A stretch of DNA of 37,291 bases from contig DVHP01000129.1 of assembly GCA_018711945.1 (NCBI GenBank), positions 1 to 37,291 on the forward strand. Reading direction: 5' to 3'. Both the position numbers and the translations under genes were made by a program. Of the stretch, positions 17,515-32,533 are shown piece after piece (positions within the stretch are counted from its first letter, which is position 1; each line of letters starts with the position of its first letter). The notes beneath the pieces are model-generated. The model searched no databases. It was not told where the DNA came from and saw only the letters and a program-made list of their open reading frames with translations. The stretch is from Candidatus Ventrenecus avicola. GTDB lineage: Bacteria; Bacillota_I; Bacilli_A; RF39; UBA660.

Positions 17515-17913
17515 CTATATTTCAACCATTTCTTTATTATATTCCAAACACTTTTCTTCTAAAACTAAATAATTACAACATCGATTTTTTACACGGAACG
17601 ATAATTTATCTTCCTTATATAGATGATAAAGCAATAGTGATTTTTTATAAACCTCTTCCTTATGCTTATTAAGCCATCTTAATTGATTTTTTAATAATTC
17701 ATATCTAAAATATTCGCCCATATCATCAGGCACTTTATTTAACGGAATCTCTTGATAGTTAGCAGGTGTAACAGGGATCATATTATTAAAGTTTATTGCC
17801 CCTAGCACTCCATGATCAATCTTCATAAAATCAATGGTATCATTCATCCTTCTATGTTTTGTTTTTGGGCTAGATAAAGGCGCAAAATAGTCAATATCAT
17901 GAACTCGAAACAA
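17515..17913 (-). pseudogene. ToxN/AbiQ-family type III toxin, apparent 5'-decayed copy (or TTG-initiated short form)
   Basis: FRVHDIDYFAPLSSPKTKHRRMNDTIDFMKIDHGVLGAINFNNMIPVTP is the ToxN/AbiQ signature. Track start is TTG; in-frame upstream reads LTVKKLRPFIGI then TAA stops, with no full N-terminus. Confidence 0.75.
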
Positions 17914-18069
17914 AATACCAATAAAAGGTCGAAGTTTCTTTACTGTGAGTTAATCGTTACAAATTTAATTTTAGTATATTGTGTGAACTGTAACAAAATA
18001 TTCACCTGCCTTTTCATTAGTAGATTGTATAAGAAAAGATAAGGATATTTTGTCGATTTCTGTCACAAC

Positions 18070-18098
18070 AAAAAAAGATTAGAGTTTGCTCTCTAATC
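18070..18098 (-). terminator. terminator between antitoxin repeats and toxN
   Basis: Minus strand GATTAGAG-agcaaa-CTCTAATC-TTTTTTT. Confidence 0.9.
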
Positions 18099-18109
18099 CT
18101 GCATTTTTC

Positions 18110-18184
18110 ACTGCCATATATAGGGCTGGCTTCACCCACTTTTTTTACTGCCATTTCTAGGGGCTGGCTTCACCCCACTTTTTT
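18110..18184 (-). ncRNA. type III antitoxin RNA (ToxI-like), two tandem pseudoknot repeats
   Basis: Minus strand units AAAAAAGTGGGGTGAAGCCAGCCCCTAGAAATGGCAGT (38 nt) and AAAAAAAGTGGGTGAAGCCAGCCCTATATATGGCAGT (37 nt). Each can form an H-type pseudoknot: GGGG/CCCC or GGG/CCC plus GCCA/TGGC. Confidence 0.85.
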
Positions 18185-18211
18185 AAACTTTACAATTTCT
18201 TGTACATCCAT

Positions 18212-18240
18212 AATCTAACATAAAAATATTAATTTGTCCA
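18212..18240 (-). promoter_or_regulatory. promoter of the antitoxin RNA
   Basis: Minus strand TGGACA-17 nt-TAGATT, ~30 nt upstream of the first repeat. Confidence 0.6.
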
Positions 18241-18784: not shown

Positions 18785-20194
18785 TTATCTTTTTATTAAA
18801 CCAACTAATTGTTTAAAAGATTTTCTGTTAAATACTATGACATATACAACGACTATCATAAAATTTAAAATATTTATAGGTGGTATATTAATATAATATA
18901 GTAAACATGTAATTATAAAAATCAAAATTACTCTTAGCGAAAATAAGAAGTTTATTTTAATTCTTACATATTTTTGAACATCTATATATCTGTATACTGC
19001 CATAATAAAATATGCAAATAAAGTTGACAAGCAGGCAGCATATAAACCAATAGTTTTAATTAATGATAAATTAAATATTAAATTGATTATTGCAGAAACA
19101 ATAGTAGTATTCATTATCTTTTTTGTTTCTTTTTTTGCAATATATATGCCACCAATTAAATTTATTAAAATGTTAAACATGTTCGCAAATAATAATATAG
19201 GTATGTAAAAATAGGATTCAATATAATTACTTCCTACAATATAATTATAAACTAGAGGTAAAGTGGCAATTATTATTACAGAAACTGTTGAAAACAAGTC
19301 TAACATTTTATTAATTATAGTTGTAAAAAAGATATCTTTATCATTATCATTATCATTTATATGCATTGAGGCACTTTCTTGCCACGACATATTAAAAATT
19401 GAAAAAATACTATTAATTATGTTGGAGAATTTACAAGATATGGTATATATCCCATTCATAGCCGTTCCTAAGATAAATGTGATAATACTTCTGTCACTAA
19501 CATTAACTATCCACCATGATAAAGAATTTGGAATCATTGGTAAAGAATATTTCAAGTATTCTAAAATTCTTTTTTTACTTAAAAATCGTAGCTCTATCAT
19601 GTTAAATATTTTATTTTTTAACGCAATATACATAGAACATAAAACATTGGCAATACAAGTTGATACTAAAATACTACTTGCCCCCATCTTAAATATTATT
19701 ATGAAAATAACATTTAAAATTAAGGTTGTTATTCCAGTAATGACACAAGCAATAGAGTATTCCTTGTTTTTTCCTAATCCACGTGATATTTGAAGTAAAA
19801 TATTTGAAAACATTATTGCAATCACTGTAAATAAAAGTAGCCAAAAATATTTTATCGAAACAAAAAAACCAATCAATATATAAATAAAAGAAACAACAAC
19901 TGCAACACAAAAAACAGTAATAACAATATTAGTTATAACTATTTTTTTTCCATCAACATTATCTTTGTTTTTTCGTTCATCAATTAGAAACCGAAAAACA
20001 GCACTATCAAATCTAAGAATTAAAACAGGAACGAACAAGCTAACATATGTTTGAATTAAATCTATTAAGCCATAATCATCTGCATTTAAGAAATGCGTAT
20101 ACAAAGGTATGAGTAAAAATGTGATAAATTGAGTAGTAAACTTTCCTAAAAACAAGATGAATGTATTTATAGCGAATTCTTTATTTCTATTCAT
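18785..20194 (-). CDS. polysaccharide flippase (Wzx-like, MATE/PST superfamily)
   Basis: 469 aa, ~12-14 hydrophobic segments; LIPLYTHFLNADDYGLIDLIQTYVSL N-terminal signature. Confidence 0.85.
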   Translation of the reverse strand: MNRNKEFAINTFILFLGKFTTQFITFLLIPLYTHFLNADDYGLIDLIQTYVSLFVPVLILRFDSAVFRFLIDERKNKDNVDGKKIVITNIVITVFCVAVVVSFIYILIGFFVSIKYFWLLLFTVIAIMFSNILLQISRGLGKNKEYSIACVITGITTLILNVIFIIIFKMGASSILVSTCIANVLCSMYIALKNKIFNMIELRFLSKKRILEYLKYSLPMIPNSLSWWIVNVSDRSIITFILGTAMNGIYTISCKFSNIINSIFSIFNMSWQESASMHINDNDNDKDIFFTTIINKMLDLFSTVSVIIIATLPLVYNYIVGSNYIESYFYIPILLFANMFNILINLIGGIYIAKKETKKIMNTTIVSAIINLIFNLSLIKTIGLYAACLSTLFAYFIMAVYRYIDVQKYVRIKINFLFSLRVILIFIITCLLYYINIPPINILNFMIVVVYVIVFNRKSFKQLVGLIKR

Positions 20195-21177
20195 ATAGCC
20201 ATGTCCCTTTCTTTATCTATATTTAAGCCAAGGAATTTGAGATTAATCTTGTTTGATTTAAAGCACTTTGCTATACATAATACAATCAATATCTCAAAAA
20301 TAAATACAAATATACCTGATAGCTGATAAATTAAAGAGGAAACGTTCAAAATTTTGCGTAAACATATTCTAAAAAATAAATGTGTACACATTATAAATAG
20401 AGTATTATTAGAGATTATCTTTATTAAGCGATTCTCTTTCGTACAAGACAAAGCTAATAAAAACAATATACACTCAGCTGCAGAAAAAAGGATATACACT
20501 ATAATATTATTTATATCATTTCCATTTATAGATATTGGATTGCCTTGATTTATCGTTCCATAAACAATTAATGTCAAAATAAATAAAATGAATGAAATTA
20601 TTGCCGTTTTATTATTTTTATGAAGACTTACTTTTGTAAAAACATTTTTTAATAAATATCCTAAGCAACAATAATTATATAATAAGATACACTTATTTAA
20701 CCCAAAATATCTTAAGGTATCATTATAAAAAAAGAAAATACTGATTATAATGCTAACGATTAAAGTTACCCAAATTTTATCTTTAAATAACCGTAATAAG
20801 ATGCTCATTAAATTCATGACGATATAATAACAAGGTAAAAACCATAATACTGAATTCCATAAATCCAATTTTCCGTCAAAATAAAATATATCTAATAAAA
20901 TGCTTACTGGTTTATTGTCTAAAATAATCACTAGAATGGAAGATACAAGGTAATAAAAAATATATGGTATAATGATTCGTTTAAAAAGTTTAGTAAATGA
21001 ATTTTGTTTAAAAAGTATGCCAGAAATCAAGAAAAAAATTGGTACATGAAAAGAATACAACATTATTCTTAAGATATGCTCTTCTTTTAAAAAATGAGCA
21101 ATCACTATAAAAAAGATTGATAAGGCCTTAGCCCAATCTATATAATCTAACCTCTTATTTGTGATTGTTTTTTTCAT
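20191..21177 (-). CDS. acyltransferase family 3 membrane protein
   Basis: RLDYIDWAKALSIFFIVIAHFL ... FHVPIFFLISGILF. Confidence 0.85.
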   Translation of the reverse strand: MKKTITNKRLDYIDWAKALSIFFIVIAHFLKEEHILRIMLYSFHVPIFFLISGILFKQNSFTKLFKRIIIPYIFYYLVSSILVIILDNKPVSILLDIFYFDGKLDLWNSVLWFLPCYYIVMNLMSILLRLFKDKIWVTLIVSIIISIFFFYNDTLRYFGLNKCILLYNYCCLGYLLKNVFTKVSLHKNNKTAIISFILFILTLIVYGTINQGNPISINGNDINNIIVYILFSAAECILFLLALSCTKENRLIKIISNNTLFIMCTHLFFRICLRKILNVSSLIYQLSGIFVFIFEILIVLCIAKCFKSNKINLKFLGLNIDKERDMAI

Positions 21178-21598
21178 GAATTTTCTCCCTTAACAAAGTA
21201 GAAGATATTCCATCAGTGTGGGGTAAATATACAACGTCAACATTAATTTTCTTTAATTCGTTCTCAATTGTATTCCATTTTTCTGTATTTTTCCAATCAT
21301 CGCCAACAAACATTACATCTATATCATTAATTTTTGCAGCCTCAATTTTTCCTTCAATAGTATATGAATTTTGCGGAATTGCTCTATCTACATATTTAAT
21401 AGCCTCTACAATTTGAATCCTCTCCGAAAAAGGAATTATAGGTTTCTTATTTTTATTTTGTTCTACCACTTCATCAGTAGATACCCCAACAATTAATTCA
21501 TCACATAATTTTTTGGCGTTTTTAAAAATATTCAAATGGCCTATATGAAACATATCATATACTCCTGCTGTATAACCTCTTCTATAATTTTTCATCAT
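21155..21598 (-). CDS. tagD: glycerol-3-phosphate cytidylyltransferase-like (TagD family)
   Basis: GYTAGVYDMFHIGHLNIFKNAKKLCDELIVGVSTDE ... FVGDDWKNTEKW ... YLPHTDGISSTLLREKI. Confidence 0.85.
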   Translation of the reverse strand: MMKNYRRGYTAGVYDMFHIGHLNIFKNAKKLCDELIVGVSTDEVVEQNKNKKPIIPFSERIQIVEAIKYVDRAIPQNSYTIEGKIEAAKINDIDVMFVGDDWKNTEKWNTIENELKKINVDVVYLPHTDGISSTLLREKIHEKNNHK

Positions 21599-22781
21599 TA
21601 CACTCTCTTTCTACTACCTCAGCAACCATTTTACTAGCATTTCCAGTTTCAAATAATTGAATTCTATTTTTAAATTTTAAACAATTTATCTTATATTCTT
21701 TATGAGGAAAATTTTCTAACAAATTTGCAAGTTCTTTTTCATTTTCTGCTTGAGGAAATGGAAGTTCCTCTAACGAAAAATATAAGTTTCTTTCTTTTTT
21801 AAAATACTCTTTTTTATCTTTGGTAAATAGTATACATGGCCCTCCTTTAATTAACATATCGAAACAACATCCTGAATAATCAGTAATTAAAAAATCGCAT
21901 ATCGAAATTAGTTCCTGCATATCTGGATAGTCAGTAACATTTATTATGTTTTTGTTATCAATACTATAATTTGATATGGGATGAAATCTAATCAACAAAT
22001 TATACTGATCATGCAGATAATGTAATAATTTTTCGTAATTAATATATGTATCAATTTCATTTAAATTTTTTCTAAAAGTTGGAGCGTATAATACAATTTT
22101 TTTTGATGGATCAATATTATACTTATTGCACAAATTTTCTTTGATACTAGTCATTTTTTTTGTATTAAAAAATATATCACATCTAGGTGTTCCACAATTT
22201 AATATTTTACCATCATACCAGAAAGAATTTCGATATATATTTGTACTAAATTCACAACCAGATATAATTAAGTCAATCATTTTTGAATCAGCTTTACATG
22301 TTTTTATATATTGAGGATTTAAAGACTCTTCAGCATCTTTTTCTATTTTTTTAAGTCTTAAAGAACTATGCCATGTTTGAATATAATATTGTTTATTTCG
22401 CTTTCTGGTTCCGTAAACAAATCTAGAATTATTTATCCATACTTTGGCAGTGCTTAGATGATATAAATAATTAATAGAGTTCATTTTAGTATAATGTATA
22501 TCAGGAGGTAAAGAATTCTTGTATTTTTCTGTTGTTGCCCAATATATTTTTAAATTGTTATTTCTTTTAAGTAGTTCCTCAGCAATGTATTTCCCATTAT
22601 CACTATAGCCTTTTCCTGAATAGCTAATTATTACGATTTTATGATTATCTATAAATCTTAATGAAAATATCATCATAAAAAAACTATTATATAATCCTAT
22701 TAAATTAAGCTTTATAAAACTAAGAAAATTAAAAATTAGTGGATACTTGGACAATTTTCTTTTTAATTTTACTAAAAACAT
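21582..22781 (-). CDS. CDP-glycerol glycerophosphotransferase family (TagB/TagF)
   Basis: YYIQTWHSSLRLKKIEKDAEES ... VLYAPTFRKNLNE ... LITDYSGCCFDMLIKGGPCILF. Confidence 0.85.
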   Translation of the reverse strand: MFLVKLKRKLSKYPLIFNFLSFIKLNLIGLYNSFFMMIFSLRFIDNHKIVIISYSGKGYSDNGKYIAEELLKRNNNLKIYWATTEKYKNSLPPDIHYTKMNSINYLYHLSTAKVWINNSRFVYGTRKRNKQYYIQTWHSSLRLKKIEKDAEESLNPQYIKTCKADSKMIDLIISGCEFSTNIYRNSFWYDGKILNCGTPRCDIFFNTKKMTSIKENLCNKYNIDPSKKIVLYAPTFRKNLNEIDTYINYEKLLHYLHDQYNLLIRFHPISNYSIDNKNIINVTDYPDMQELISICDFLITDYSGCCFDMLIKGGPCILFTKDKKEYFKKERNLYFSLEELPFPQAENEKELANLLENFPHKEYKINCLKFKNRIQLFETGNASKMVAEVVERECNDEKL

Positions 22782-22795
22782 ACTTCTATTCTCCT

Positions 22796-23764
22796 TTAAA
22801 TTTTTATTAATCCTTTATTTTTCAAAAAATTATATATTTTTAAAATGTATATCCCTGTTTTTTTACCAAAAGTATTAAATAGACGATTACATAGTCTTAC
22901 TTTGTTATTTTCGGAATAATTCAATAAATCTTCTAATGCATATATTTTACTTTTTAATTCTTTATCGCAATTATACTTATTTATTAACATTAAAAGAATC
23001 ACGTAATGATATGCAAGATAATTATAATATGCTATTTTAAATTGTTCCTTCTCATATTCATAATGATACCAATAATATAAAATATTGTATAAATCCAGAA
23101 TGTTTTTTTTACCAATTTTATTTGTGATTGATCCTTTTCTCTGCTGGCGATAAACATAGATATCCTGATTAATATCTTGTATGGATTGTATTTTTAAATA
23201 CAATCTTAAAGACCAATCCAAATCTTCGGATAAAATGCCTTCCTTAAAAAAAAGTTTATTATCTATAACAATTTTTCTACGTACAATCTTATCGCAAGCA
23301 GAGACAGAAATTGTACCATCTCGAATCTTTTTCCTTAAAATATTAGCAATACTTCCTTTATACTGATTATGATTAGAAAAATATACATATTTATTTTTAT
23401 TTTCATAATAATAGATCCATTTATATTGCGTAACATCGCAATTTAATTTTTCAATAACATCATTTAACTTTATATCTTTCGAAATAAAATCATCACTGTC
23501 TACAAACATTAAAAATTCGCCTTCTGCATGCATTATTCCAGTATTTCTTGCACCAGATAGTCCTTTGTTTTCCTGATGAAACACTTTAATCTCATTATAC
23601 TCATTGGCATATTTATTACATATTTTTCCACTGCTATCTGTGGAACCATCATTAACCAGTATTATTTCATAATTCTCTAGATTCTTCTCTAAAATACTAT
23701 TCAAACAATTATCTAAATATTTTTCAACGTTGTAAACTGGTATTATAATACTTAATTTTTTCAC
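22796..23764 (-). CDS. glycosyltransferase family 2
   Basis: LSIIIPVYNVEKYLDNCLNSIL ... LVNDGSTDSSGKIC ... FVDSDDF. GTG start behind ggagg RBS preferred over the track start. Confidence 0.9.
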   Translation of the reverse strand: MKKLSIIIPVYNVEKYLDNCLNSILEKNLENYEIILVNDGSTDSSGKICNKYANEYNEIKVFHQENKGLSGARNTGIMHAEGEFLMFVDSDDFISKDIKLNDVIEKLNCDVTQYKWIYYYENKNKYVYFSNHNQYKGSIANILRKKIRDGTISVSACDKIVRRKIVIDNKLFFKEGILSEDLDWSLRLYLKIQSIQDINQDIYVYRQQRKGSITNKIGKKNILDLYNILYYWYHYEYEKEQFKIAYYNYLAYHYVILLMLINKYNCDKELKSKIYALEDLLNYSENNKVRLCNRLFNTFGKKTGIYILKIYNFLKNKGLIKI

Positions 23765-24944
23765 CTTTCTTGCCTCCTTCTTCATAACAAGCTAATCCCA
23801 TGCATAAAGTTAATGCCATTGAAGGTAAACCAACTCCGCCAAAACTGTAAAGTATTGTATTCATATTAACATACAGCAAAATTAATAACAAATTGATATG
23901 TAACTTATTTTTGTTTGAATTACTTTTAAAGAAAGCTCGTAATAAGATTATTAAATAAATAATTAGAGCTATATATCCATAACGAAATGCAAAATCTACC
24001 AGCGAATTATGTGTGTTTGAGTTTGCAAATCCAGCTTCTCTTAAAACAGAAGAAATAGAATCAAACCCATAGCCAAATATTGGCGAACCTTGTAAATAAT
24101 TAAGTGCATATATTATCATTTCGCTTCTTCCATGACTACCTTGATCTAGTCGTAAAAAAGGTATATTCTCTATATTCTTAAAAAACATTATTGCTGCAAT
24201 TATTACTATTGAAACTAATAGCCCTTTTTTTATTATATTTTTATTAGAATACTTAATAAAAATATAATAAATCAAGCATATTACAAGACTAAGCATTGTT
24301 CCTCTAGAACCACTTACTATTATACCAGATAATGAAAGTAAAAAAATTAATAACAGTGCTATTTTATTAGATTTTTTTCTTTTTATTCTAAATATCAATG
24401 CACATGGTAGAGCAGATATAATCGAGAAAAAATTAGAATCAAAGTATATGGAGCCGCTTCGATTTCCTTCCAACGAATATCCTAAAAATCCATTGTTAAA
24501 GTAAAGGATTATTCCGAATATAATAATAGGGATAATTAGAATTAAATACAGTCTTATAAAATTATCAGAGAATTTTTGATTGTTTCTAAAATATATGGGT
24601 AATACTAAAAATAAAGTTATTGTATTTATTATATATAATAAAACTATAAAAATACTACTAAAAGAAGCATAATCAAAAAACAATAATGATAATAATGTAC
24701 TTAAAATCATGATAATAAACAAAGGAATTATAACTAAATTATGCTTTAAATTATTTGTAAACTCTTTCATATAGGCTTTATTTTTCAAAATGATAGCTGT
24801 TGCAAGAAACAATAAAGCAAAAAGAATTGCTTGAGTATATGTGTAATACGAATATAAATGATTTTCATATGCCAATAAAGAAATTAACAATATTAAATAT
24901 AGTAGTGCATTAACAATTTTAGACTCTCTCATAAATACCCTCAA
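23724..24944 (-). CDS. O-antigen ligase/polymerase-like (Wzy/WaaL) membrane protein
   Basis: Polytopic; IIVSGSRGTMLSLVI and GYGFDSISSVLREAGFANSNTHNSLVDFAFRYGYIALI. Confidence 0.8.
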   Translation of the reverse strand: MRVFMRESKIVNALLYLILLISLLAYENHLYSYYTYTQAILFALLFLATAIILKNKAYMKEFTNNLKHNLVIIPLFIIMILSTLLSLLFFDYASFSSIFIVLLYIINTITLFLVLPIYFRNNQKFSDNFIRLYLILIIPIIIFGIILYFNNGFLGYSLEGNRSGSIYFDSNFFSIISALPCALIFRIKRKKSNKIALLLIFLLSLSGIIVSGSRGTMLSLVICLIYYIFIKYSNKNIIKKGLLVSIVIIAAIMFFKNIENIPFLRLDQGSHGRSEMIIYALNYLQGSPIFGYGFDSISSVLREAGFANSNTHNSLVDFAFRYGYIALIIYLIILLRAFFKSNSNKNKLHINLLLILLYVNMNTILYSFGGVGLPSMALTLCMGLACYEEGGKKGEKIKYYNTSLQR

Positions 24945-26034
24945 TTTTATTCATAATAGATTTTAAAGCAAATTTTTTCGACATACCCAGTGATTTCTTC
25001 GACATATATTCATATAAATCTTTATTAGAATAAATTTGTACTATTTTTTCTTTCATATTGTCAATATCATTTATACTAACTAAATATCCATTCTCACCAT
25101 CTTTTACAATATCTTTGTGACCCCTGTTATTAGTTGCTACAACAGGTAACTCACATCTATTGGCTTCAATAAGGTTTAAGCCTAACCCTTCTCTAATACT
25201 TGTTGAAATTGCTAAATCAGATGCTCTAAGAATATTAGGAATATCGTTTCTAAACCCAAGAAAATGAATGTTTGAAGTTAATAGTTCGTTCTTTACTATT
25301 TTTTGATAATATCCATTTCGCTCATCTTTTCCTACAATTAATAAATGAATATTGTTAAATTCTTTACATATTTTCTTCATAACTTTAATAATCATAACTT
25401 GATTCTTATTTTTATCTAATCTAGCACTATATACTAAAACAAAATCATCTTTCTTTAGTCCTAAAGATTTTCTAAGTTCCAATTTTTCTTTTTCACTCAT
25501 CTTAAAATTAAATTTTTCTTCATCAATTCCTACACCAGGAACATATTCGATATCCTTACACTTCTTAAATTTCTTTTTAGCCCTCTGATAATCCTCTTGA
25601 TTAATTAAAATTAAAGTATCTGTATATTTGGATAAATACTTCTCTACAGGATAAAATAAACACCAATTAAGAAGAGGAGCTCCTTTAAAAAAATGAAAAC
25701 CATGAGCGGTATAAATCACTCTAGTACCGTTTTTTCTAGCCTTTTTAGCCGCAAGTCTTGTCACAACGCTTCCCATCGGTGTATGAGTATGAATCATATC
25801 ATAATGTTCTTTCTGAACGACTTTTCTAAGCTCTTTAATAGCCTTTAAATTATTAATTTTAAAAGGACTTCTTTCAAATGGAATAATAATTTTCTTATCA
25901 CAATAAGGAATTTCTTCAGTTCCATTCGTAGCCACATGAACAGTGTAACCTAAAGTTTTTAACTTTTTCAAATATGGTATATGAAATGCAAGAATATGTT
26001 CATCTACAGTTGCCGTAAATAATACTTTTCTCAT
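24919..26034 (-). CDS. glycosyltransferase family 4 (EpsD-like)
   Basis: HTHTPMGSVVTRLAAKKARKNGTRVIYTAHGFHFFKGAPLLNW ... SIREGLGLNLIEANRCELPVVATNNRGHKDIV. Confidence 0.92.
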   Translation of the reverse strand: MRKVLFTATVDEHILAFHIPYLKKLKTLGYTVHVATNGTEEIPYCDKKIIIPFERSPFKINNLKAIKELRKVVQKEHYDMIHTHTPMGSVVTRLAAKKARKNGTRVIYTAHGFHFFKGAPLLNWCLFYPVEKYLSKYTDTLILINQEDYQRAKKKFKKCKDIEYVPGVGIDEEKFNFKMSEKEKLELRKSLGLKKDDFVLVYSARLDKNKNQVMIIKVMKKICKEFNNIHLLIVGKDERNGYYQKIVKNELLTSNIHFLGFRNDIPNILRASDLAISTSIREGLGLNLIEANRCELPVVATNNRGHKDIVKDGENGYLVSINDIDNMKEKIVQIYSNKDLYEYMSKKSLGMSKKFALKSIMNKIEGIYERV

Positions 26035-26036
26035 TA

Positions 26037-26669
26037 TTACACTACCCCTTTATTCATTGCAGTTTTTTCTTTCTTTAATGCATCCAACTCATTCTTAATT
26101 GTCTCTTTTCCGGCATCTGCACCCTTCCCAGATAATACCGTAACAATTGTTAAAAAGACAACTTTACAATCCTCAAAGAAAGTTAAATTTTCTACATAAT
26201 GCACATCAAATTTAATCTTTTCAAATATCGTAAGACCATTTCTTCCTTTTGCTTGAGCGAGTCCCGTAATACCTGGACGAACATTGACTCTTTTTCTCTG
26301 TGTCTCGTTCATGTTCTCATAGTAATCCGTAATCCAAGGACGCGGTCCAATAAAACTCATTTCCCCTTTTAAGATGTTAAATACTTGAGGAAGTTCATCT
26401 AACGAAGTCTTTCTTAAAAAACTTCCTACTTTCGTATGTTTATCTGCACACTTAAAATCATGAACATCATTATCTACTTTCATACTTCGAAACTTAATAA
26501 GTCGAAATACCTTCCCATAACGACCAGTTCTATATTGTTTAAAAAATACAGGTCCATGATCTTCTAATTTAATAGCTATTGCAATCAATATCATTGGAAT
26601 AGCAAAAAGAACTAGTAATAAAATTGCTATCAAAACATCTAAAACTCTCTTTACAAACTTCCTATACAT
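26037..26669 (-). CDS. undecaprenyl-phosphate sugar transferase (initiating)
   Basis: MYRKFVKRVLDVLIAILLLV ... VFFKQYRTGRYGKVFRLIKFRSM ... LRKTSLDELPQVFNILKGEMSFIGPRP; start at internal ATG behind aggagtg RBS. Confidence 0.92.
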   Translation of the reverse strand: MYRKFVKRVLDVLIAILLLVLFAIPMILIAIAIKLEDHGPVFFKQYRTGRYGKVFRLIKFRSMKVDNDVHDFKCADKHTKVGSFLRKTSLDELPQVFNILKGEMSFIGPRPWITDYYENMNETQRKRVNVRPGITGLAQAKGRNGLTIFEKIKFDVHYVENLTFFEDCKVVFLTIVTVLSGKGADAGKETIKNELDALKKEKTAMNKGVV

Positions 26670-26679
26670 ACAAACACTC

Positions 26680-27411
26680 CTAACAAACATCTCTATCATA
26701 CAAAATATAATCAAAATTTTCAACAAATAATTGATGAACAATTTTTTTATCTTTTACAATCTTCAAAACTTTCTTAGCAGCCTTCTTTAAATCATAAGCT
26801 TCCACGTGATGCATGTCACTTGCTAAAAACGAAATCATTCCTTTTTGTAATAATTTTTTAAGCCGTCTTTCAGCACCTTTCCCATACTTTCCAAGCAAGC
26901 TTTTATAGTTTCCCTGTAACAAAACTCCCATATCAATTAAAGACTCAAAAAAAGTAGAATCCTCAGAGATATAATGATATCTTTCTGGATGAGCAAGAAT
27001 TGGAATATATTCATGATTAATAAGTTCAAACAAAATATTCTTCACATTTAAAAGTTCATTGTTCATGGGAAGCTCTACCAAAACATAACGAGAGTGATTC
27101 AACGTCATACATTCCCCATTTTCTAAAAGTTCCAAAATATTGTCACATAGTAAAATTTCATTCCCCAAATAAAGTCGAATTGGCAAATTTCTTGTTTCCA
27201 CAAGTTCTTGCAACACTTCAAACCGAATTCTTTTATCCTTATTATTACAAGCATAGTTACTTCCATAAATATAATGGGGTGTCAAAATAATATCTGACAC
27301 CCCTTCCTCTATTGCAAGTTTCAATATTTTCATGCTCTCTGTAGCCGAACTACTACCGTCATCAATGCCAGAAAGTATATGACTATGAATATCTTTCAAA
27401 TTACTGTTCAT
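26680..27411 (-). CDS. tyrosine-protein phosphatase (CpsB/CapC PHP family)
   Basis: DIHSHILSGIDDGSSSATESMKIL ... PILAHPERYHYI ... LASDMHH. Confidence 0.9.
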   Translation of the reverse strand: MNSNLKDIHSHILSGIDDGSSSATESMKILKLAIEEGVSDIILTPHYIYGSNYACNNKDKRIRFEVLQELVETRNLPIRLYLGNEILLCDNILELLENGECMTLNHSRYVLVELPMNNELLNVKNILFELINHEYIPILAHPERYHYISEDSTFFESLIDMGVLLQGNYKSLLGKYGKGAERRLKKLLQKGMISFLASDMHHVEAYDLKKAAKKVLKIVKDKKIVHQLFVENFDYILYDRDVC

Positions 27412-28093
27412 AGTACTCATAATATCCATAACCTTTCTTATGTTTTAACTCTACCTTATTTAAAACAACTCCAGTAAGCTCTGCATTCGCTTTTTCAAAA
27501 GCTTTCTTTACATCATTAAGCATTTCTACTTTCGTCTTCTTTGCCGAAACTACCACAATATTTGCATCAGAATATCTTGTCATAATCAAAGTATCCGATA
27601 GTCCTAAAGCCGGTGGACAATCCAAAAGGATAATATCAAACACTTGATCCAACTTTTGCAAAATCTCCCGATTTGTCTCCGAAGCTAAAAGTTCAATTGG
27701 ATTTGGTGGAGTCGGTCCCTTCGGAATCAAAGAAACATTTTCAACATCAGTTTTTACAATATATTTCGCCAAATCCCTTGGTTCATCATAATTTAAAATT
27801 AAATTAGAGTATCCTCGGCTTGAAGAATTTTTTACATGAAAAATTTTATGTTGTCTGCCTCTTCTCAAATCACAATCGATAATCAAGACCTTCTTATCTT
27901 CTTGAGCATAAGCTAACGCAAGATTAGCTAAAATAAAGCTTTTCCCATCTCCCATTTCAGCACTAGTAAGTAAAATGATTTTCATTTCAGAATCTACAGC
28001 CGAAAACTGTAAATTTGTTCGAATCGTTTTAATTGCTTCACTAAATGCAGATTTTGGCTTTACATTTACGATTAAGTCACTACTCTGGTTCAT
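27401..28093 (-). CDS. CpsD/CapB-family tyrosine-protein kinase (BY-kinase)
   Basis: EAIKTIRTNLQFSAVDSEMKIILLTSAEMGDGKSFILANLA ... VLIIDCDLRRGRQHKIF; C-terminal Tyr cluster YGYYEYYEQ. Confidence 0.92.
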   Translation of the reverse strand: MNQSSDLIVNVKPKSAFSEAIKTIRTNLQFSAVDSEMKIILLTSAEMGDGKSFILANLALAYAQEDKKVLIIDCDLRRGRQHKIFHVKNSSSRGYSNLILNYDEPRDLAKYIVKTDVENVSLIPKGPTPPNPIELLASETNREILQKLDQVFDIILLDCPPALGLSDTLIMTRYSDANIVVVSAKKTKVEMLNDVKKAFEKANAELTGVVLNKVELKHKKGYGYYEYYEQ

Positions 28094-28096
28094 AAA

Positions 28097-28762
28097 TTAA
28101 CCCCTCTTTTCTACATATGGTACGTTTCCTAAAACGACCAAACCAAATTTCTCTTCAATTTCTGTACTAGATTTAATAGAAGTATCAAAATAATACATAA
28201 TAAACACAATCACACATCCAACAATAATACCAATCATTAAATATAAAACAATTTCTTTAATGATATTAACATTGTATGGACTACTTTCAACGATGGCCTC
28301 ATCAAGAACAGATACATTCTGTAAATTATAACGAGTTTTAATATCCGCCATAAATACTTCAGCAATCTTATTTGCAATCTGAGCAGCTAATTGATTACTT
28401 CGATCAGAAACAGAGATTTTAATAATATCTGTATCCGTAATTGCCGAAACACTAACCCTACTAGCTAATGTTTCTTCACTATAAGAAAGCCCTAACCCGC
28501 TAATCACTTCAGATAAAATTTTTCTACTTTTAATAATTTGTGTATATGTCTCCACCAGATTACGATTTACCTGAATATCACTATTTGTAATCTCTGTATT
28601 TTGACTCACGAGCACAATTGAAGTAGTACCATGATACATCGGTTTTTTAATCACAACCGAATAAATACAACCAACAATAAAAATAACAGCCATCACACCT
28701 AGTATAATTGTAATATGAGAAAGAAAATAAGTTCCTAATTCCTTCAAGTTGATTTCTTCCAT
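28097..28762 (-). CDS. Wzz/CpsC-family chain-length/kinase-activator protein
   Basis: Two TM segments flanking the Wzz domain, YHGTTSIVLVSQNTEIT. Confidence 0.85.
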   Translation of the reverse strand: MEEINLKELGTYFLSHITIILGVMAVIFIVGCIYSVVIKKPMYHGTTSIVLVSQNTEITNSDIQVNRNLVETYTQIIKSRKILSEVISGLGLSYSEETLASRVSVSAITDTDIIKISVSDRSNQLAAQIANKIAEVFMADIKTRYNLQNVSVLDEAIVESSPYNVNIIKEIVLYLMIGIIVGCVIVFIMYYFDTSIKSSTEIEEKFGLVVLGNVPYVEKRG

Positions 28763-28793
28763 ATAAAAACATCCCTTCTTCTACTCTAAGAAT

Positions 28794-28822
28794 AGTGTAA
28801 TAAAAAAGACTACATTTGTCAA
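28794..28822 (-). promoter_or_regulatory. promoter of the polysaccharide operon
   Basis: Minus strand TTGACA-17 nt-TACACT upstream of the Wzz gene. Confidence 0.65.
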
Positions 28823-28862
28823 TGACTTTGACATTCAAAATTCTGTCATTTTCACTTACCGA

Positions 28863-29690
28863 TTACGGTAAAACCTCTTTCTTCTTTTTTCGCTTTAAAA
28901 CAAGCACTTTTCCGAGCAGTGAACTAAGAAGTCCTAAAATCAAAAAGAAAAGAGTAACGCCCAAAATACATGAGCTAAGACTAGAATAAATAGTCTTCAT
29001 CAAATTAGAAAAAGCAGTATTATAAACATAAAAATTTTGCATATCCAAAGAATTCGAAAGATAAAAGAAAAGTCCTCCATAAAGCATACCACTCGTTAAA
29101 AATGGAATTCCAAGCACATTTCTTCTCGTACCAAATTTAAGAATGAGAGAAATTAAAACAATCGTAATTCCTAAAATCAACAACATGATAGGTAGCATAT
29201 TCTTAATTTTAATAAAAGGTGTTTGAATCATGCCAAACAAGAAAGAATCCTCCATATTCTTTTGATAAGTATTTAAAATCTCATCTACAAACAAATCTAA
29301 GGAACTCTCGTCACTGACTGTTAAATGATTCTGATTTAAATAAGCAACAATATTTTCCTCCAATTGTATTTTTAATTGTTCTGTCGAAACAGCAAGAGAA
29401 CCTCCCTCATAAAAATTATGGAGATAAGTAAACAATTCCTCTCTGATCTTATCTTCAGAAATAAGTCCATCTAAAACCTCTTCCGATAAACCAGACTGCA
29501 AAATATAATAAGAAAATTCTTCCTCGGTTGTCTCATACAAATCTTTGACAAAATTACTTTTTTCAATTGCACTTATCATAAAACTTTCTTGAAATATTGT
29601 GCATTGTAGTAGCAAAATTCCTGCAAAAAGAAAAACTAGAATTGCTAATAAAAACCCGCCAACATAATAACTAATTGTTTTCATTTTCAT
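28863..29690 (-). CDS. hypothetical membrane protein linked to sortase
   Basis: N-terminal TM plus ~3 C-terminal TMs; start at ATG behind aaggagc RBS. Confidence 0.65.
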   Translation of the reverse strand: MKMKTISYYVGGFLLAILVFLFAGILLLQCTIFQESFMISAIEKSNFVKDLYETTEEEFSYYILQSGLSEEVLDGLISEDKIREELFTYLHNFYEGGSLAVSTEQLKIQLEENIVAYLNQNHLTVSDESSLDLFVDEILNTYQKNMEDSFLFGMIQTPFIKIKNMLPIMLLILGITIVLISLILKFGTRRNVLGIPFLTSGMLYGGLFFYLSNSLDMQNFYVYNTAFSNLMKTIYSSLSSCILGVTLFFLILGLLSSLLGKVLVLKRKKKKEVLP

Positions 29691-30312
29691 AACCAGCTCC
29701 TTTGAGTTTTGCATATACCACATAACGCTCATTGGTTAGTCCAACGTATCCCGGAGGATAGCAAGTATAAAGCATTAACAACTCTTCTTCTGTTTTTACC
29801 GGAAGTGCTTCTTCATCAGTATTACGAATAATTTTAGATTCCGTCATTTCATAGGTATATGTTCCATAAATGGTATCCAAAATAATCTCGTCCCCAACAG
29901 ATAAATTAGGAAGAGTTCCAAAATACGCTTCATTATTATGCGCATCTAACACGATTCCTCCACCTTCTCCTGGAAAATAACTGCCAGCCAAATGTCCAAC
30001 TCCATAACGTAAAATATCTAAAGTATCACCATGATAGACTGGTAATTCCAAAGAAAGCGTTGGAATTTTAATCGTGGCCCAGACAGTCCCGTAATTCGGA
30101 TAATCCGTAAGGCGCTTTTTTACTTGATCAAAAGAAATTGTTTGATTTTCAGTCTTTACCTCAGAATAACTCAAATTACTAATCAAAGTAAAATATGGTC
30201 TTACTTGTCTTTCAACAAACAGGTAAAACAAAAAGACAAGAAAAGCCGTAAAGAAAAAGGAAACTGCGATATTCTTCGCAATTCCCTTTAAAACGTTTTG
30301 TAATCTATGCAT
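29671..30312 (-). CDS. class D sortase
   Basis: LPVYHGDTLDILRYGVGHLAGSYFPGEGGGIVLDAHNN (catalytic His), LLMLYTCYPPGYVGLTNERYVVYA (TCYP...R). Confidence 0.9.
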   Translation of the reverse strand: MHRLQNVLKGIAKNIAVSFFFTAFLVFLFYLFVERQVRPYFTLISNLSYSEVKTENQTISFDQVKKRLTDYPNYGTVWATIKIPTLSLELPVYHGDTLDILRYGVGHLAGSYFPGEGGGIVLDAHNNEAYFGTLPNLSVGDEIILDTIYGTYTYEMTESKIIRNTDEEALPVKTEEELLMLYTCYPPGYVGLTNERYVVYAKLKGAGYENENN

Positions 30313-30829
30313 GTTTTCTTAGAAACATTCCTACAGCAATTGCTAATCCAACTAATGAAATAACACCAGTAATTAGAAGGACATTATTTGTACCTGTTTG
30401 TCGAATTGCTTCTTTTGTTACACGAGCAAATTCTGTTCCATCAATATTTTGAATAGAAAGAACGCCACCAGATAACACAGTTGCCTTAATTGCCGTATTA
30501 TCAGAAATGTCACTAACAAGAGCAACTAACTTATTTTTATCTGCAGTAGATAAATCATTTACATTAGTCACATTTGCATTTCTTAAAATAGCAATTGCTT
30601 CGTCTACTTTTCCTGCGATGTAATCGGCATCAGATTCACTAATCTCATTTTTAGCTAGATACTGTTCTACTAAAACTTTTTCAGTATCTCTTAAAGAAAT
30701 TTCATTGCCATTAACATCATAAGTAGCTGTTAACTTTGATGCCAATTCATCTTCTGTCATCGCATTAGCAGAAACAGAAAAACCAAACATTGCAAGTGCT
30801 ACTAATAAAAGCATGCTACATTTCTTCAT
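30305..30829 (-). CDS. secreted acidic protein with C-terminal sortase-like sorting signal
   Basis: Signal peptide MKKCSMLLLVALAMFGFSVSANA; C-terminal IRQTGTNNVLLITGVISLVGLAIAVGMFLRKHA; 8-nt overlap with sortase. Confidence 0.75.
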   Translation of the reverse strand: MKKCSMLLLVALAMFGFSVSANAMTEDELASKLTATYDVNGNEISLRDTEKVLVEQYLAKNEISESDADYIAGKVDEAIAILRNANVTNVNDLSTADKNKLVALVSDISDNTAIKATVLSGGVLSIQNIDGTEFARVTKEAIRQTGTNNVLLITGVISLVGLAIAVGMFLRKHA

Positions 30830-30875
30830 AAACTCTCCACCTTTCTAAAGAACATTTTACTATAATATTTTTTTC

Positions 30876-31367
30876 TTAGCAACCTTTTTTTCTTAGATTT
30901 GACATTCCATCACATTTCTGAATAAACAGTTTTACAAGTTTCACATATTTTTCTGCAGAAACCACTCCTACATCCCCTATTTTATAAAGCAACTGACATC
31001 TTTCTACTTTTAAAGGCAATTCAATACGAACAAAAGACTCTTTTTGTAGTCCCAACTTTTTATAATGAGCAATACGAATTCGTTGATAAGAATCTTTTTG
31101 AGAAGTAATTTTTAACACATAATAATTTTTCCTATCATGTTTAATAAAATGCTCGCGGGTATCGTCCACCACCAAAACAGGTCGAGACATTGTCTCGAAT
31201 GTCACTTCCCCATCATTTACAATTAAAATAGGAATTTGACAAATCCAAACCTCACCAAATCTAGGCCTAGAAAAACTCCGAGTTTCCTCTTCTAATAAAG
31301 AGAAAGAAAAAAGGCTTGCAATCTCTTGAATTTCTTTTTGTAATTCTTCTTTTAAATATAGTTCCAT
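30876..31367 (-). CDS. PemK/MazF-like fold protein
   Basis: RPRFGEVWICQIPILI ... MSRPVLVVDD ... YYVLKITSQ ... KLGLQKESFVRIELPLKVERCQLLYKIGDV. Confidence 0.5.
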   Translation of the reverse strand: MELYLKEELQKEIQEIASLFSFSLLEEETRSFSRPRFGEVWICQIPILIVNDGEVTFETMSRPVLVVDDTREHFIKHDRKNYYVLKITSQKDSYQRIRIAHYKKLGLQKESFVRIELPLKVERCQLLYKIGDVGVVSAEKYVKLVKLFIQKCDGMSNLRKKGC

Positions 31368-31419
31368 AGTTAACTATTTTATAAAAAAGACAAGAAAAAA
31401 ACAAGTAATTTCAAACTTG

Positions 31420-31716
31420 TTATTTCAAAGAATCCATCCAACTTTCTAGTTCTTCTTTACTCATAAAGCCCACAGTTTTTCCAAGCTGCTTCCCATTATG
31501 AAACAAAATAAGGGTTGGAATAGACATTACTCCAAAAGACACTGCAAGATCCGTATGGTCTTCCGTATTCACTTTTAACACTTTAATATCATCTAATTCT
31601 TCTAGAATTGGCGCAAGAGCTTTACAAGGGCCACACCAATCGGCATAAAAATCCACCAAAACAAGACCTTCTCTAATTTCTTCTTCAAAATTTTCATTTT
31701 CTAAATGTTTTACCAT
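31420..31716 (-). CDS. trxA: thioredoxin
   Basis: LVDFYADWCGPCKALAPILEEL ... VMSIPTLILFHNGK. Confidence 0.97.
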   Translation of the reverse strand: MVKHLENENFEEEIREGLVLVDFYADWCGPCKALAPILEELDDIKVLKVNTEDHTDLAVSFGVMSIPTLILFHNGKQLGKTVGFMSKEELESWMDSLK

Positions 31717-31734
31717 AATGAAATTCCTTTCTAT

Positions 31735-32442
31735 TTATTCATATTTTTCTAAAATGCCATCTGCGTTTGGGATTTCTAATTTTCCTCTGTTAATTAAATC
31801 CCTAACAGAATCTGCATCCACAATATTGTATTTTAATAAAATATCCAAGCTTTGTCTATTGTATTCCGCCTTATCATGAAGGTTTTGATCTTTAATACTA
31901 ATGATCTCTTCAAATGCCTGAAAATAATTTTCTGAAATCCCAGAAAGTATTGGACTAGAATTTGCAATTTTCTCAGCTACAAAACTTTCCTCTATATAAG
32001 GATTTGTCGCTGGTATTTGAGCGAGCAAAAAAAGTGCAACAAAGACAAATAAATAAGTTTCAAAAAAACCAAACAATGCTCCTAAAAGTTTTGACGGAAT
32101 TCCTAAAACAATTGTAAAATTAAGAACTTTTTCAATAACTCCAGTAACACCAATTAAAATCTGTAAAATACTCATCAATATAATGTAAACAATTACAAAT
32201 GCTAAAGCTTCATAAATGACAATATTTAAAACTGTCAACCCTTCAAAGTCGCCCGCAAAATTAAAAAACGGTAGATACGTATACATTAATTTTGATACAG
32301 GATTTTTCAAATAAAAAGCTAACACAATGACAACAATAGCCCCAATAAATGTGACAGCACTTTTGATCACACCTCTTTTAAAACCAATTACAGCCCCCAT
32401 TAATAAAATAAGTACAATAATTACATCAATTGTTAATGCCAT
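31735..32442 (-). CDS. CvpA family protein
   Basis: MALTIDVIIVLILLMGAVIGFKRGVIKSAVTFIGAIV; start at internal ATG. Confidence 0.85.
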   Translation of the reverse strand: MALTIDVIIVLILLMGAVIGFKRGVIKSAVTFIGAIVVIVLAFYLKNPVSKLMYTYLPFFNFAGDFEGLTVLNIVIYEALAFVIVYIILMSILQILIGVTGVIEKVLNFTIVLGIPSKLLGALFGFFETYLFVFVALFLLAQIPATNPYIEESFVAEKIANSSPILSGISENYFQAFEEIISIKDQNLHDKAEYNRQSLDILLKYNIVDADSVRDLINRGKLEIPNADGILEKYE

Positions 32443-32533
32443 ATTTCTAATGATTTCCTCCTTACTTAGTATTATAGTATAAAAAACTAGGAAATGCAAA
32501 GAATTTATGATACACTAAATATGGTGATGTTTT

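Follow-up and report, generated by a model that had tools for sequence, protein, structure and literature searches.

A ToxIN-family antitoxin array beside a frameshifted toxN in Candidatus Ventrenecus avicola: a type III module that has probably lost its toxin

The nearest described systems to the locus reported here are the ToxIN modules of Bacillus thuringiensis (4ato), Pectobacterium atrosepticum (2xd0) and E. coli (7d8o), in which a promoter, tandem pseudoknot units, a terminator and ToxN follow one another in that order, and in which the antitoxin unit is an H-type pseudoknot with a guanine between its stems. ToxI-Pa, ToxI-Bt and antiQ have the same gene order and units of 34-36 nt, those of antiQ being 35 nt long in 2.8 copies (PMC5086642). 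CptIN of Eubacterium rectale likewise combines type III gene order with a pseudoknot antitoxin. Finally, phage PhiTE carries a pseudo-ToxI, a set of ToxI-like repeats without a toxin gene, for which slippage has been proposed as the route of unit-number change (PMC3475682). The window, by which we mean the whole analysed stretch of 37,291 nt from this uncultured gut member of the Bacilli, holds on its minus strand a candidate promoter, two repeat units, a terminator and a ToxN homologue, in that order (Table 1) and with the same guanine between the stems. The toxin body matches the chains of all three ToxIN toxins (4ato ToxN, 2xd0 ToxN and 7d8o, of the ToxN/AbiQ family) and, more weakly (E 7.6e-5), that of Lactococcus AbiQ (4glk). 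The locus differs from the three ToxINs and from AbiQ/antiQ in the same ways: its toxin is frameshifted, it has two units only, and these are of another class (GUGAAGCCAGCCC). Unlike CptIN, it has units of ToxIN length, and CptIN was set aside as a family assignment when the search of the window toxin against PDB sequences returned ToxN/AbiQ chains only and no CptN. With the PhiTE element it shares ToxI-like repeats without an intact toxin gene and, probably, a change of unit number by slippage, but the phage element is a mimic under escape selection, whereas the window locus is a chromosomal remnant. The array is thus a genuine ToxIN-family type III antitoxin RNA, of a known kind, in a module in decay, and our main reading, to which we give a probability of about 0.84, is that this module has lost its toxin.

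Table 1. Features of the antitoxin-toxin locus, in window positions
Feature	Position	Strand	Remarks
Candidate sigma-70-type promoter	18212..18240	(-)	TGGACA-17-TAGATT, TG before second hexamer; consensus match
Antitoxin unit 1 (38 nt)	18147..18184	(-)	AAAAAAGT GGGG TGAA GCCA G CCCC TAGAAA TGGC AGT
Antitoxin unit 2 (37 nt)	18110..18146	(-)	AAAAAAAGT GGG TGAA GCCA G CCC TATATA TGGC AGT
Intrinsic terminator	18075..18100	(-)	stem GATTAGAG/CTCTAATC, then T-run; between antitoxin and toxin
toxN 5' fragment	17940..18017	(-)	ATG...KFVTINSQ-TAA; stop at deletion junction
toxN body, other frame, 144 codons	17515..17949	(-)	first usable start TTG at 17913

The two tandem minus-strand repeats claimed by the first-pass annotation were recovered at 18184-18110 both by TRF, for which they form the best-scoring tandem repeat of the window (18104-18184, period 37, 2.1 copies), and by a direct-repeat search, which gave a spacing of 38. 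At 38 and 37 nt the units lie within the range of about 34-38 nt expected of tandem arrays upstream of such toxins. Each runs from an A-run and a G through the 5' side of stem 1 (GGGG or GGG), UGAA and the 5' side of stem 2 (GCCA) to a single G, the 3' side of stem 1 (CCCC or CCC), a 6-nt loop and the 3' side of stem 2 (UGGC), so that stem 1 pairs as GGGG/CCCC in unit 1 and GGG/CCC in unit 2, and stem 2 as GCCA/TGGC in both. A single unit is modest evidence for a pseudoknot, since equally strong patterns arose in 13 of 3000 base shuffles of unit 1 (0.4%) and in 114 of 3000 of unit 2 (3.8%); the firmness of the assignment comes from comparative covariation. We took the best 80 of 420 related loci from the genome collection, nearly all of which have an array of the same kind upstream of ToxN, the few exceptions being arrays cut by contig ends, and aligned 50 distinct units. 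Standard pairs fill 96.3% of cells in this alignment, against 78.3% when partners are shuffled, and sliding the partners by 1-3 columns lowers pairing to 18-51%; covariation scores 0.485 (0.140 shuffled), and 5 of the 7 pairs show two-sided changes. Relatedness inflates the shuffle statistics, but the slid controls retain that relatedness and still fail. Among relatives stem 1 occurs as GGG/CCC, GAG/CTC and AGG/CCT, and stem 2 as GCCA/TGGC, ACCA/TGGT, TCCA/TGGA and GGCA/TGCC; in the extra middle unit of one sister species (G012) a compensatory GCCG/CGGC replaces GCCA/TGGC. The loss of pairing in homologous loci that would have spoken against the structure is therefore not what the relatives show, and the H-type pseudoknot proposed earlier for each repeat, with the stems given for it, is strongly supported by sequence covariation. 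The suggestion that the repeat might be a new antitoxin variant did not survive the comparison, as uncultured gut Bacilli carry GAAGCCAG-type units ahead of many intact ToxN genes. Rfam returned no match in the window at the gathering threshold and only chance-level matches at E<=10; a canonical ToxIN paralogue elsewhere in the same genome (contig C2) is equally without a match at gathering. Some relatives elaborate the unit: loop 2 carries an insert in L111, L121 and L058, which in L111 and L121 is about 20 nt long, possibly a small hairpin, and yields 58-nt units, while two unit types alternate (ABAB) in L148, L194, L195, L209 and L223, the last with six units.

The flanking signals are of unequal value. 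The promoter candidate matches 9 of 12 consensus positions and is one of 11 such sites where 6.7 are expected, so that a site of this quality is commonplace by chance; both hexamers and the distance between them recur unchanged in the sister species G012 and G030. The terminator that had been placed after the repeats is there, between array and ToxN homologue, as a 10-pair stem (18100-18075) followed by a T-run; the region has 3 terminator-like sites against 0.4 expected from shuffles, and the terminator is conserved in most relatives. The last unit and terminator of the window score 69.5 bits (E 3.2e-14) against covariance model R1, a model that includes the window among its 35 sequences. From this arrangement, a single promoter would transcribe the two-unit pseudoknot antitoxin RNA, with most transcription going no further than the terminator. 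The little ToxN that the intact ancestor made would have come from read-through; this ribonuclease presumably cleaved the transcript at the unit boundaries, and the single units so freed would have held it in a ring-shaped complex until its release on, for example, phage infection. Elsewhere in the window, ORF translations at 18785-32499 read as a polysaccharide-type gene cluster (flippase-like, acyltransferase-like, glycosyltransferases, sugar transferase, chain-length regulator, kinase-like).

The downstream ORF proved to be the ToxN/AbiQ homologue that had been predicted: besides the PDB chain matches, its body matches Pfam PF13958 (ToxN_toxin) at E 3.8e-35, at profile positions 28-159 only, the first ~27 positions being missing from the ORF; NCBIfam has no model matching the toxin fragment. 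The cause of the truncation, which the first-pass annotation overlooked, is visible against the intact orthologue of G012. The window toxN lacks 52 bp, at about 17941-17943, so that a TAA falls at the junction and the remainder of the gene is shifted to another frame; direct repeats flanking the junction are absent. With the intact reading frame lost, the locus is a ToxI antitoxin with a toxN pseudogene, and not a complete ToxIN system. Hence the type III reading stands for the antitoxin, the terminator and the ToxN homologue downstream, but not for a working two-component system. The residues conserved for the fold of E. coli ToxN (Phe3, Tyr10, Ile11 and Leu14; PMC8860590) have their equivalents in the part of the window protein that is separated or deleted, and the truncated toxin is presumably inactive. 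Few codons differ between the toxin bodies of the window and G012 (about 8 synonymous and 6 replacement changes); these few differences, in which the two kinds of change are about equally common, suggest that the toxin was under constraint until recently.

Of the two sister species, G012 has a complete toxN, split over two contig ends, with a full N-terminus and three antitoxin units. G030 retains the promoter, two units and the terminator, and its toxin is a C-terminal scrap with two TGA stops; relative to the window its antitoxin differs at 6 of 177 sites and the scrap at 13 of 108. At this G030 locus (L007 1500-1800) the toxin deletion extends from just past the terminator to near the 3' end of the gene, and similar C-terminal scraps lie directly after the terminator in L295 and L298. 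The window genome itself has a second ToxIN, with an intact ToxN, adjoining ffh on contig C2 (L003 6684-7462), with three units of a different class (GGTGATTCCCACC...GGAA), each 34 nt long. In other genomes, two complete ToxN loci stand in direct tandem at L176 (G371:C16), L189 (G109:C14), L223 (G361:C10) and L227 (G409:C51), and a 177-aa ToxN_toxin-family protein (L038 1307-1812, G023:C51) has no recognisable antitoxin repeats upstream.

ToxN is present in 100 of 386 genomes of the order, and there the number of units goes with the state of the toxin. Among 85 intact toxins, 66 have three units, 8 have four, 8 have two, and one each has six, one and none, so that 75 have at least three; among 21 broken toxins, 10 have one unit, 6 have two and 5 have three. 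Two units or fewer thus accompany 10 of 85 intact toxins and 16 of 21 broken ones (Fisher p = 1.7e-8), a p-value to be taken as indicative, since ambiguous loci were curated by eye from their sequences, unblinded as to the state of the toxin, and shared phylogeny keeps the loci from being independent. Automatic unit counters had erred through chance A-runs or strict pairing, and the locus scored with no units (L130) has an array about 600 nt further upstream. In the set of 80 loci, which overlaps the 386-genome set, the corresponding fractions are 6 of 69 and 3 of 4 (p = 0.005). Two units are indeed low for the family, as had been remarked, most intact relatives having three; the low number in the window is accounted for by this pattern, as broken loci mostly have one or two. 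The window array probably went from three units to two by replication slippage, after the death of the toxin or just before it. Once the toxin is dead the array may be free to shrink; alternatively, selection may favour a dead toxin once units have been lost.

Several other explanations deserve weighing against toxin loss. The deletion may vary between strains or reflect faulty assembly; were it an artefact, the window would hold an ordinary working two-unit ToxIN. The MAG is fragmented (144 contigs, 77% complete) and the toxin body looks constrained against G012, yet short-read errors do not typically leave a 52-bp gap that has no direct repeats at its sides, the unit number is reduced here as in other broken loci, and the toxin of G030 was lost at this very site; we regard an artefact as improbable. 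More improbable still is that re-initiation at a start codon within the body frame yields a shortened, active ToxN that the two-unit antitoxin keeps in check. A 132-aa ORF does begin at the TTG, the catalytic-strand residues (APLSSPK) are retained, and 1.8 antiQ repeats are enough to inhibit AbiQ (PMC5086642), but such a product would be short of ~40 residues at its start, among them the N-terminal strand and the R equivalent to Lys33. That the array is a structured regulatory RNA unrelated to toxin-antitoxin function, for example a leader of rpsB, upstream of which it lies on the same strand, is hardly credible given that it has its own terminator, followed by ToxN, and that ToxN genes in many other genomes have the same units upstream.

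A less remote alternative to simple decay, though in our judgement still an unlikely one, is that the antitoxin is purposely kept as a solitary RNA that neutralises the ToxN of phages or plasmids, in an anti-addiction or anti-abortive-infection role; the stand-alone ToxI-like RNA of PhiTE can block ToxN (PMC3475682). A covariance model of the last unit plus terminator, run on the 386 genomes, matches 160 of them, and of the 148 distinct strong matches listed, 93 have ToxN within 1.2 kb downstream and 55 do not; a few of these 55 are cut by contig ends, and toxin scraps were seen at 3 of 40 inspected. Units in solitary arrays still pair, with stem 1 formed in 94.7% of cells (81.6% shuffled) in one class and 79.4% (55.0% shuffled) in the other. 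At two sites shared by sister-species pairs the last unit and terminator are 95% identical and the next 60 nt 58%, and in G030 the antitoxin has diverged from the window less than the toxin scrap. On the other side, the remaining shared sites show a smaller conservation contrast or none, about half of the solitary arrays counted have only one or two units (21 of 39, the other 18 having at least three), the toxin loss in the window looks recent enough that selection is not needed, and the other antitoxin of this genome is of a different class, with cross-talk probably absent. Since the arrays were found by similarity, a search that favours well-kept ones, their conservation suggests retention but falls short of proof. 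Service to another toxin was considered and rejected, as Pfam showed no common partner among ten downstream genes: seven are housekeeping genes (RNase P protein, SpoU methylase, ribosome-binding GTPase, LemA, CTP transferase, class I tRNA synthetase, UPF0004), and the others are one AbiEi-like gene, one helix-turn-helix protein and one without a Pfam match. At L274 (G129:C63) a solitary type III antitoxin unit lies directly upstream of an AbiEi-like (type IV antitoxin) gene.

Toxin loss from a ToxIN-family module thus remains our reading of the window, and the parts worth following are how unit number relates to the state of the toxin and how often arrays occur without one. We found no description of either in the open-access literature, searched mostly by title and abstract, and a title-and-abstract search of that literature found no orphan type III antitoxins. 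Unit number, usually three with an intact ToxN and low with a dead one, appears tied to whether the toxin is present, and roughly a third of the strong antitoxin arrays in the order stand without a toxin; among related genomes, arrays of this kind frequently outlast their toxins. A speculative extension, which we think doubtful, is that toxin-less chromosomal ToxI arrays form a standing RNA-only class in small-genome gut Bacilli, selected to disarm incoming or resident ToxN, with the freshly broken locus of the window and the deleted one of G030 as early stages. Should solitary arrays be able to disarm ToxN, the pseudo-ToxI of phage would have a chromosomal counterpart in them.
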